From Sulfurimonas sp. (GTDB taxonomy: Bacteria > Campylobacterota > Campylobacteria > Campylobacterales > Sulfurimonadaceae), in assembly GCA_013791885.1 (NCBI GenBank), contig VMSZ01000062.1:1-45414 (forward strand): a stretch of 45,414 nt of DNA, given 5' to 3'. A program made the translations under genes and the position numbers. Shown piece after piece: positions 12,076 through 25,696 of the stretch; positions within the stretch are counted from its first letter, which is position 1, and each line of letters opens with the position of its first letter. Below the pieces are notes generated by a model, which saw only the letters and a program-made list of their open reading frames with translations, was not told where the DNA came from and did no database searches.

Positions 12076-12094
12076 TTAGTCCGTAAAAGGAATA

Positions 12095-12174
12095 CTTCGC
12101 TATCGCCGTTAAGGCGACCTAAGGGCTATAGCGCCCAATGCGAAAATTCACTCAATGATTTTTCGTGAAAGCTT
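12095..12174 (+). repeat. Structured intergenic repeat, copy A (before hemE)
   Basis: An 80-bp element begins CTTCGCT and ends TGAAAGCTT. Three successive hairpins: TCGCC/GGCGA (12103-12107 with 12113-12117), GGGC/GCCC (12123-12126 with 12133-12136), and a 10-bp stem (12141-12150 with 12156-12165, one mismatch) with loop CTCAA. Copy B at 25537-25614 has the same order, spacing and flanks but different stem bases that still pair, so structure is conserved over sequence. It lies 41 bp before the hemE ATG. Unknown class: sRNA, cis element or REP-like repeat. Confidence 0.75.
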
Positions 12175-12215
12175 GGCTTTTTTAAAGTCAGATATATTAG
12201 TAAATAAGGTTTAAG

Positions 12216-13256
12216 ATGAGTAAAATATTTGTAGACGCATGTTTTGGTAAAGAAACACCATACACTCCTGTATGGATGATGAGACAGGCTGGGCGCTATC
12301 TTCCTGAGTATATGGAAGTGAGAAAACAGGCTGGAAACTTCTTAAATCTTTGTCATGACCCTAAAAAAGCTGCTGAAGTTACACTGCAACCACTTGACAT
12401 TGTTGGCGTTGATGCTGCTATCTTATTTAGTGATATTCTTGTTATTCCGGATGAAATGGGAATGGATTTAGAGTTTATTAAAGGATTTGGACCGAAATTC
12501 AATGATCCATTAGAATCTCAAGCAGATTTAGACAGACTCATCGGCGGGGAAGAAGCCGCAAATAAACTTACTTATGTTTATGAGACTATTGAACTTCTAA
12601 GAAAACAGCTCGATGAACGTGGCGACAACAAAGCCCTTATCGGTTTTACAGGTGCTCCGTGGACGCTTGCAACATACATGATAGAAGGACAAGGAACAAA
12701 AACGTATAACATTTGTAAAAAAATGATGTACTCAAACCCTGAACTTCTTCACAATATTTTGAAAAAGGTGACAGAAGTTGTAAAACTTTACATGGAAAAA
12801 CAAATCTTGGCCGGTATTGACGTTGTGCAAATTTTTGACTCATGGGCTGCTGCTATTGAACCAGGTAAATATGATGAATTTTCTTGGAGCTATATGGTTG
12901 AAATTGCAGAGTATTTGAAAGAAAAATACCCTCATATTCCTGTAATTATGTTTCCAAAAGGTATTCCTGCGTTTTTAGACAAAGTGTATGGAAATTTTGA
13001 TGTATTTGGTGTTGACTGGTCAACTCCAATGGCATTGGCAAAAGAAAAACTTGGGGACAAATATGTTCTTCAAGGAAATATGGAACCTTGCCGCTTGTAC
13101 TCTAAAGAGGCCACTACAAAATGTGTAGAAGTTATTCAAGAAACTATGGGCGGCAAACGCCACATCTTTAACTTGGGACATGGAATTCTTCCGGACGTTC
13201 CTGTAGAAAACGCAATTCACTTCGTGAATGAATGCCACCGTGTCAGCGGAAAATAA
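12216..13256 (+). CDS. hemE: Uroporphyrinogen decarboxylase
   Basis: A 346-residue cytosolic enzyme of tetrapyrrole synthesis that removes four carboxyl groups from uroporphyrinogen III to give coproporphyrinogen III. Signatures: [15 protein letters not shown] with the catalytic arginines R23 and R27, F-S-D-I-L-V carrying the essential Asp, the [12 protein letters not shown] segment, and [11 protein letters not shown] near the end. The product feeds HemN, encoded about 11 kb away in this window. It overlaps the following radical SAM gene by 29 nt. Confidence 0.97.
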
Positions 13257-24129: not shown

Positions 24130-25497
24130 CTACACCGTTTTTGAAAATGTTTTAGAACTTGCCGCATGGCGTTTCATATAAGCGTCAAAAGGCATGGCGA
24201 TATTACGAATTAAAAGTGTCCCTGTCTCAGAACACGCTATGTGATTCTCATCCATAGTTAAAAGTTCTTCCGCCGCAAATGGTTTCAAAGCTTCAATTGC
24301 GTCTGCAAAATAAGTTTTAAAATCAATGTTGTAGAGCTTTTCAAATCTTTTTATATCAAGCTTGAAGTTGCTCATAAGTTCCATAATGACATATTGACGA
24401 ATCTGGTCATCTGCGTTTAGAACGACACCGCGTTCAAACGGAAGTTTTCCGGCATCAATGGCCGCTTCATACTCACTCATCTCTTTAAAATTTTGATTAT
24501 AACTGTCAACACCCTCGCCTATGGAAGTAAGGCCCACACCGATTAAATCGGCGCCGCCTTTTGTTGTGTAACCTTGAAAATTTCTATGCAGTTCACCTTT
24601 TTCGATGGCTTTAAAAAGTTCATCTTCAGGTTTTGCAAAGTGATCCATTCCTATCATTTTGTAGCCATGTGAAGTTAAAAAATCTATGGTGTACTGCATA
24701 ATATGAAGTTTTTCATCAGGAAGAGGCAGAGTCGTCTCATCAATTTTACGCATAGTTTTTTTCAGCCAAGGAACATGCGCGTAATTAAAGACTGCAAATC
24801 TGTCAGGGTTTAACGTAAGTGCTAGTGCCAAAGTCTCTTTAAAAGTCTCTAATGTTTGAAACGGGAGACCGTAAATAAGGTCAACATTCACAGAGTGCAT
24901 ATTGTATTTTCTTGCCAAATCCATCGCTGCTTTTGTCATCTCATAGGGCTGAACACGGTGCACGGCAATCTGAACTTTTTCGTTAAAATCCTGAATCCCG
25001 AAACTTACACGGTTAAAGCCGGCTTCGCTCATAACCTTCATCTGATCTTCGTCAATGTGGCGTGGGTCTATTTCACAACTTATCTCGGCATCTTTTACAA
25101 AATTCGGGAAGTAAGATTTAATCTCTTCAATAATTTCTTTGAGCTGAGGAGCAGAGAAAAAAGTCGGTGTTCCCCCGCCAAAGTGCATCTGTATCACTTC
25201 ACGTTTACAGTCTAAAAGTTTTGAAAGTATTTGTAATTCGCGTTTGAGATACTCCATATAACGCAGCATTTTGTCCTCTTTGGATGTAAATACGACATTG
25301 CATCCGCAAAAATAACAGGCATTGCGACAAAAAGGAAGATGGAAATAAAGGCTCAAAGGACGCTTGGCATCTTGATTTTGAAGTTTGTTGATGTAAGTGT
25401 CGTAGGCATACGAGTCACTAAATTCGAGAGCTGTCGGGTAACTTGTGTAACGCGGCCCCGGTTTGGAATACTTTGTAAATTTTGCAAAATCGAGCAT
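24130..25497 (-). CDS. hemN: Oxygen-independent coproporphyrinogen III oxidase
   Basis: A 455-residue radical SAM enzyme that decarboxylates coproporphyrinogen III to protoporphyrinogen IX without oxygen. The cluster motif C-R-N-A-C-Y-F-C-G-C gives C57, C61, C64 and the HemN-specific fourth Cys C66. The opening K-Y-x-x-P-G-P-R-Y-T-S-Y-P-T and the G-G-G-T-P-T-F motif are HemN-specific and separate it from HemW. Ribosome-binding site AAAGGA 6 bp before the ATG. It leads the operon hemN-Fe-S protein-lgt. The structured repeat copy B sits just upstream. Confidence 0.96.
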   Translation of the reverse strand: MLDFAKFTKYSKPGPRYTSYPTALEFSDSYAYDTYINKLQNQDAKRPLSLYFHLPFCRNACYFCGCNVVFTSKEDKMLRYMEYLKRELQILSKLLDCKREVIQMHFGGGTPTFFSAPQLKEIIEEIKSYFPNFVKDAEISCEIDPRHIDEDQMKVMSEAGFNRVSFGIQDFNEKVQIAVHRVQPYEMTKAAMDLARKYNMHSVNVDLIYGLPFQTLETFKETLALALTLNPDRFAVFNYAHVPWLKKTMRKIDETTLPLPDEKLHIMQYTIDFLTSHGYKMIGMDHFAKPEDELFKAIEKGELHRNFQGYTTKGGADLIGVGLTSIGEGVDSYNQNFKEMSEYEAAIDAGKLPFERGVVLNADDQIRQYVIMELMSNFKLDIKRFEKLYNIDFKTYFADAIEALKPFAAEELLTMDENHIACSETGTLLIRNIAMPFDAYMKRHAASSKTFSKTV

Positions 25498-25536
25498 TTT
25501 AATCCTTTATACCTTACAGAAAAGAACTTTCTAAGG

Positions 25537-25614
25537 CTTCGCTTTGACCGCTATGGTCACTACTGTGCTAAAGCACGATGCAGAAAATCACTAAATGATT
25601 TTCTGTGAAAGCTT
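25537..25614 (+). repeat. Structured intergenic repeat, copy B (beside hemN)
   Basis: A 78-bp element aligned with copy A: CTTCGCT at the start, TGAAAGCTT at the end. Hairpins: TGACC/GGTCA (25545-25549 with 25555-25559), GTGC/GCAC (25565-25568 with 25573-25576), and a perfect 10-bp stem (25581-25590 with 25596-25605) around loop CTAAA. In the first two stems most bases differ from copy A but still pair. It lies 40 bp from the hemN start, in the orientation opposite to hemN. A further small hairpin (25615-25628) follows. Confidence 0.75.
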
Positions 25615-25696
25615 ACCTCTTCAGAGGTGAAAATTTTATAATTTCATATATGTTTGACGCGATTATCCCTAAACTTTACTAATAAACGAATAAATT

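Follow-up and report, generated by a model that had tools for sequence, protein, structure and literature searches.

The hairpin elements that lie upstream of hemE and hemN in a 45,414-nucleotide stretch of Sulfurimonas sp. DNA (contig VMSZ01000062.1; hereafter, the window) very probably belong to a non-autonomous mobile palindromic repeat of the Campylobacterota, whose unit is a two-hairpin core of about 46 nt; in the window that core forms part of a larger palindrome of five hairpins, inserted upstream of each of the two genes. With less assurance, but still on the favorable side, we propose that this 46-bp mobile element carries a portable translation start—an SD-like site, an ATG, and three codons—with which it can become established within the opening codons of essential genes, making a short leader ORF that overlaps the new start (M-P-S-R-K...); the window hairpins would then represent the intergenic branch of the family. 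In the sequences as they stand, the core is dispersed beside unrelated genes, has both empty and filled sites, is nested in other cores, covaries in both stems, and displays in-frame ATGs in its loop at gene starts. The term mobile rests here on the empty and filled sites and on the dispersal, since no target-site duplication was seen and no jump was observed.

A preliminary description of the window had placed a three-hairpin element at 12095–12174 (copy A) and a second copy of it at 25537–25614 (copy B), and both are indeed found there, with CTTCGCT, ATGC, and TGAAAGCTT in common. The three hairpins named form in both copies, with a minimum free energy (MFE) as RNA far below that of shuffled sequence: −25.4 kcal/mol in copy A (z −3.4) and −26.0 kcal/mol in copy B (z −5.0), none of 200 shuffles being as stable in either instance. 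The compensatory changes reported between the copies are likewise real, TCGCC/GGCGA becoming TGACC/GGTCA in the first hairpin (H1) and GGGC/GCCC becoming GTGC/GCAC in the second (H2). The hairpins therefore stand, but not the view that three of them make up the whole element, which has five: a fourth follows AAGCTT in both window copies, and a fifth, truncated in copy A, precedes CTNCGCT in the aligned copies outside the window. Read from that alignment, the window copies are cores nested inside a larger five-hairpin palindrome (...GGCAC^...^AAAGCTT). A closing stem GCT/AGC round the three hairpins appeared in the MFE folds of both copies, but by eye looked inconsistent among the copies compared and was rejected.

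The features of the window are collected in Table 1. Two covariance models were used in the searches, R1, built from 10 sequences, and R2, a model of the core built from 50 sequences.

Table 1. Positions of the two palindromic elements and their parts in the window.
Feature	Position	Strand	Basis
Copy A, palindromic element between a UPF0114 gene and hemE, first hairpin truncated	12078..12195	+	Alignment with other genomic copies; short element-free spacer in congeners G006, G004, G012
Hairpin H1, copy A (TCGCC/GGCGA)	12103..12117	+	Fold
Two-hairpin core, copy A (H2, ATGC linker, H3, GTGAAA), the unit that recurs elsewhere	12118..12172	+	Model R2, 52.1 bits (copy is a training row)
Hairpin H2, copy A (GGGC/GCCC)	12123..12136	+	Fold
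Hairpin H3, copy A	12140..12166	+	Fold
Hairpin H4, copy A, after AAGCTT	12173..12191	+	Fold
hemE start ATGAGTAAAATATTT, the empty site; core between ATGRRN and AAA here in six other records	12216..12245	+	Sequence comparison
Copy B, palindromic element antisense to hemN and upstream of that gene, perhaps within its leader	25515..25632	+	Alignment; shorter element-free spacer in G005, G006, G012
Hairpin H1, copy B (TGACC/GGTCA)	25545..25559	+	Fold
Two-hairpin core, copy B	25560..25612	+	Model R2, 70.8 bits (copy is a training row)
Hairpin H2, copy B (GTGC/GCAC)	25564..25577	+	Fold
Hairpin H3, copy B	25580..25606	+	Fold
Hairpin H4, copy B	25613..25630	+	Fold

Both neighbors were confirmed through Pfam, hemE (12216–13256, + strand) by URO-D and hemN (24130–25497, − strand) by Radical_SAM and HemN_C; and the distance of some 40 bp to a haem gene was also correct (41 bp from copy A to hemE, 39 bp from copy B to hemN), as was the opposite orientation of the two copies relative to those genes. 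By its position, copy B could affect the expression of hemN. A spaced pattern matched twice in the genome, its reversed control not at all. A covariance model with A and B among its 10 training sequences scored copy B at 97.7 bits and copy A at 85.4 bits; on the reverse strand the model gave weak matches inside B (18.7 bits) and A (10.6 bits) themselves, and in the rest of the window its best score was 9.8 bits. At the gathering score, the matches of Rfam in the window were three tRNAs only.

The source genome (2.52 Mb, 75 contigs) contains seven copies, six longer and one core-only, whose neighbors are hemE; hemN; an FbpA-like gene plus a possible flagellar gene; fliD/fliS; leuC; rpe; and a coaD-like gene, which names are readings of the translations except for the Pfam-based hemE, hemN, and coaD-like gene (CTP_transf_like). 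The seventh copy (G000:C5:41197–41249; L204:1501–1553) lies in the start of the coaD-like gene, with its loop ATG in frame (MSTGKKIALYPGTFDPITNGH). The preliminary description had regarded the element as tied to haem biosynthesis, with the proviso that many copies near unrelated genes would indicate a REP-like repeat instead. Such was the finding: five of the seven copies adjoin non-haem genes, many copies occur in relatives, and the hemE and hemN spacers of congeners lack the element, so that the haem link was not sustained. Its opinion that a simple riboswitch was unlikely does hold; the orientation of the copies relative to the genes varies within the genome. Because the neighbors are mostly non-haem and the orientation varies, a haem-specific role is excluded; and the idea of a cis-regulatory or protein-binding RNA that coordinates the haem biosynthesis genes, which both window copies by their proximity to such genes and the cores in the hemE or hemH start of other species might suggest, is scarcely credible, as against it stand the five copies beside non-haem genes, the inconstant orientation, the hemN loci of 12 congeners, in which model R2 did not find the core, and the gene families with a copy at the start, 20 of 22 of which are non-haem.

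Empty sites are visible at both window loci. The UPF0114–hemE spacer measures about 20–35 bp and lacks the element in the congeners G006, G004, and G012 (21 of 28 loci being readable at the motif used), and the spacer between the ABC transporter gene and hemN is shorter and element-free in G005, G006, and G012 (8 of 13 loci readable, the source genome's own included). When model R2 was run on 22 further hemE loci, 21 of them from the genus, the one match (G020) was elsewhere, inside the hemE start, which copy together with the two of the window amounts to 3 cores in 36 hemE/hemN loci. At that start, six filled records differ from the empty site of the window by a 46-nt insertion between ATGRRN and AAA, which length comes from a separate reading of the junctions, the automatic alignment placing the gap poorly. 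As to the marks of a MITE, the ends of the core do not read, by eye, as inverted repeats, and hemE shows no target-site duplication; one core, in G250, lies within an element that does have terminal inverted repeats (see below). The repeat thus has many copies next to unrelated genes and both empty and filled sites, as a dispersed mobile repeat would. Two side observations concern the same gene: in some congeners (L234, L239, L240, L249, L255) the spacer upstream of hemE contains, by eye, different palindrome-like insertions, and looks like an insertion hot spot; and the hemE start of L251 (G011), ATGGGAATAAAAAATAAAATATTTG, may be the scar of a lost start copy.

The core reads approximately ATAAG-nn-CTAAAG-nn-CWATGCAG-[stem]-ACTAAAT-[stem]-CGT, and is positioned before A-rich sequence (CGT^AAA). 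The covariation proposed from two copies was checked on an alignment of 50 distinct core sequences, and lay far above that of shuffles: 173 cells change on both sides versus 53.4 after shuffling, with 0 of 500 shuffles reaching 173; 87.1% of the cells pair versus 66.1%; two-sided changes occur at 12 of the 15 pairs; and the score for covariation, 0.585, compares with 0.198 when shuffled and at most 0.151 when slid, in which comparisons the rows are not independent because copies from the same genome and orthologous loci are included, the slid control preserving that relatedness. The helix is not perfect, one pair failing in 32 of the 50 rows and another in 22.

Nesting is recurrent. In L138, L140, L143, L148, and L186, a core can be read in the H3 loop of another core; the copies of G102 share composite repeats of up to about 320 bp, in which no autonomous element was recognized, the ORFs there having been left out. 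In G250 (L058:3862–4190), a core lies inside an element of some 320 bp with terminal inverted repeats of about 35 bp or more and a fold of −155.8 kcal/mol. In G229 (L053–L055) the core occupies the 16S–23S spacer beside a tRNA gene, as determined by Rfam on L053, to which L054 and L055 are near-identical round the core; the long identical flanks of these three loci were considered as a transposon, and rejected as being rRNA operons with a core in that spacer. Among five further loci submitted to Rfam at the gathering score, the only matches were rRNA and tRNA, all in L053.

The search with a covariance model for further copies, both in the genome and across the Campylobacterota, returned many. 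Model R1, at an E-value of 1e-3, detected the element in at least 70 of 228 genomes of the family and in at least 7 of 18 genera, the filters being stricter there and the counts lower bounds, while model R2, at 1e-4, did so in 26 of 397 genomes of the phylum and in 6 of 68 genera. The matches L016, L017, and L019 were judged by eye to be chance occurrences in what looks like coding sequence, and were discarded. One exact core pattern was found in 60 contig stretches of genome_contigs (one genome per species, 84,980 species, contigs of at least 3 kb), of which 58 are titled Campylobacterota; 13 of the 60 come from one MAG, so that the genomes are fewer than the stretches. The other two, from a Patescibacteria MAG and a Fluviicola MAG, contain the core in genes whose identity to core-bearing Campylobacterota homologs is 73% and 81%, respectively, for which reason we consider those occurrences as likely misbinning. 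A phage origin was set aside, there being 0 exact matches of that one pattern in viral contigs. This distribution bears on whether the core might be a structured RNA useful to the host, such as a small RNA or a signal for mRNA processing or stability, copied round the genome: the strong covariation would suit such a role, as would the copy at the 3′ end of the same gene in seven records; but the presence is patchy with both models, the copies face either way relative to the genes, and the pairing decays at what appears, by eye from the flanks, to be one shared locus (L068, L071, and L102, at 66.8, 32.5, and 33.6 bits), and we consider that explanation improbable.

As to how a mobile core would move, we infer a trans-acting enzyme that recognizes the hairpins on single-stranded DNA, which recognition would be the reason for the stems being kept paired. 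A family search, the examination of 31 of the many loci of Y1_Tnp (the IS200/RAYT type), and genome co-occurrence identified no mobilizing gene. A known arrangement to be considered is a REP or REPIN moved by a RAYT, as a member of the GTAG or CGTC REP superfamilies. A small palindrome nested in larger ones is described for some REPs (PMC3733652, in its accessible text), and the source genome does have one Y1_Tnp (RAYT) gene (L015:1210–2270; G000:C73), but a different palindromic repeat flanks that gene, GGAAGCGATGGCTTGCCTTCGGC plus its complement. A core beside the RAYT gene, by analogy with the repeat flanking it in GTAG REPs, was likewise lacking at the 31 Y1_Tnp loci, where model R1 gave one weak match only (E 0.18); and the co-occurrence of Y1_Tnp with the element is not significant (Y1_Tnp in 41 of the 70 genomes with the element and in 76 of the 158 without it; Fisher p 0.15). 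Nor, in most copies, is the hairpin base marked by an unpaired tag, GTAG or CGTC. In 142 non-redundant copies (from 69 + 75 core matches in 64 + 69 scanned sources, which originated in earlier searches with the same motif and are not a random sample), GTAG is near the stem bases in 5, and anywhere in 8 forward and 11 reverse; CGTC occurs anywhere in 2 forward and 8 reverse. A REP of those superfamilies is accordingly unlikely, though the least so among the rivals to the repeat that we propose.

The same 142 copies reveal the habit of the core at gene starts. An ATG is present in the loop of 109, the loop region of the other 33 having none, and from that codon a frame of at least 100 codons is open in 34 of the 109 in the frame of the ATG, the corresponding numbers for the two remaining frames being 1 and 0. 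In 35 copies the ATG frame is open for at least 80 codons; of these start ORFs, 24 were scanned against protein families, 23 matching one and 22 being taken as genuine start insertions, and the remaining 11 represent genes already among those 24, with five of hemE (by translation) and one each of rimO, an SDR gene, an epimerase gene, lpxA, adk, and a 2-hydroxyacid dehydrogenase gene, the members of which six pairs are 73–96% identical. Two of the 35 were removed, L079, with the real purA start downstream, and L215, with no family. This leaves 33 start insertions among the 142 copies, distributed over what appear to be 22 gene families (the two SDR genes were told apart by eye, as were the two epimerase genes), with hemE, adk, fabD, lpxA, rimO, carA, and hemH as examples. 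Seven are nested forms, and 26 solo; 25 of the solo copies are followed by AAA or AAG, a lysine codon, and the typical new N-terminus is M-P-S-R-K and then the gene's own next codons. The empty site was compared for hemE, and in the other genes the insertion was read from the protein N-terminus. The same locus is occupied in different species in the six hemE records and in the pairs for adk, lpxA, rimO, the SDR, the epimerase, and the 2-hydroxyacid dehydrogenase, and the start copies belong largely to one subfamily. They also pair more weakly, the 91-nt starts of hemE and the coaD-like gene folding no better than shuffles (z +0.96 and −0.02).

A GAGG or GGAG motif is located 5–14 nt before the loop ATG in 23 of the 35 start copies—12 have none—versus 9 of 74 others (Fisher p 2.6e-8, orthologs counted separately), which p value, like the start counts above, overstates independence because loci are shared among species and the copies are largely of one subfamily. 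Judged from these features, the core seems to bring to gene starts a replacement translation start, complete with start codon and ribosome-binding site. The insertions that survive would mainly be those placed immediately ahead of an in-phase lysine codon, through selection for phase, since translation of the gene from the loop ATG is then in frame; the new start would lie behind the purine-rich ribosome site that the core carries, and with translation from the loop ATG the old start would be left driving a short leader as far as the stop at the junction. An upstream in-phase ATG, GTG, or TTG exists in 27 of the 35 start copies, the phase being no independent evidence, as the gene frame dictates it; for 23 of the 27, the leader, usually of 16–20 codons, closes at the junction with TAA or TAG. 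The same upstream starts would be expected if the 46 nt were skipped, by programmed ribosomal bypassing or RNA excision, with the old start in use, and removal of the insertion would restore the ancestral hemE start; but an in-frame ATG and the enriched SD-like site would be needless under skipping, and the upstream start is a TTG or GTG in 6 of the 27, so that we consider this alternative very improbable.

The core may meet genes at their other end as well. In 10 copies, 7 of them one gene, an upstream frame of at least 80 codons terminates at a TAA of the H2 loop (one frame counted, with no control frame). In those seven (L041, L042, L049, L050, L101, L220, L225), the TAA is the stop codon of a conserved gene, which we take to be that of fumarate hydratase.

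Several known repeats resemble the core in part; the comparison is with the accessible text of each report. The BOX element of Streptococcus pneumoniae is a dispersed modular repeat of several hairpins and variable make-up that provides some genes with their stop codon, the overlap being at the 3′ end in 36 of the 58 CDSs concerned, and whose boxC encodes the start codon at three loci (PMC3049150). The likeness thus lies in a dispersed multi-hairpin repeat giving stop codons and sometimes start codons; but the core belongs to another phylum, the separation being made on the description of BOX and not on its sequence, and is nested in other palindromes, whereas BOX is a string of modules. Furthermore, the BOX-started ORFs match only hypothetical proteins and are without good Shine-Dalgarno sites (PMC3049150), whereas the core-started genes that were scanned mostly fall in conserved families and often have an SD-like site. 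The Rickettsia palindromic elements (RPE), about 105–150 bp long and translated as an in-frame part of the protein, are similarly selfish palindromic repeats that settle in protein genes without destroying them (PMC10969869, PMC2229807). The core differs in that its 46 nt are not a multiple of three, so that insertion shifts the old start out of frame, and a new one is offered, with the in-frame ATG near its end and the leader frame mostly stopping at the junction, as given above. The GTAG and CGTC REPs share with the core the small hairpins, the nesting of some in longer palindromes, and the overlap of some with ORF N-termini, and the CGTC REPs, with no dedicated transposase, occur in Sulfurovum (PMC3733652); the core, mostly without their tag at the stem, has two unlike hairpins per unit, and a carried ribosome site and start codon are not described for REPs in the accessible text of that report. 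Finally, the enterobacterial RU repeats are small mobile repeats which, like the core, are fused to open reading frames, but as read-through peptides (PMC2759123), in the main text of which article, so far as accessible, the terms start codon, initiation, Shine, and ribosome binding are absent. In the accessible open-licence PMC literature we found neither a description of this Campylobacterota repeat nor a bacterial repeat carrying both a ribosome site and a start codon into conserved genes. In kind, the core belongs with the small palindromic mobile repeats (REP, BOX, RPE, RU), among which its way of occupying gene starts is unusual and was not expected.

The common view of mobile DNA in bacteria is that it spares genes by inserting between them. 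The strong covariation of the stems provides a handle for finding the enzyme that would move the core. If the proposal is true, by entering a gene start and supplying a substitute for what is lost there, such a repeat would have a compact means of living alongside essential genes; the N-termini and the annotation of starts in the Campylobacterota would change; and each invaded gene would gain an overlapping leader ORF that could become regulation.
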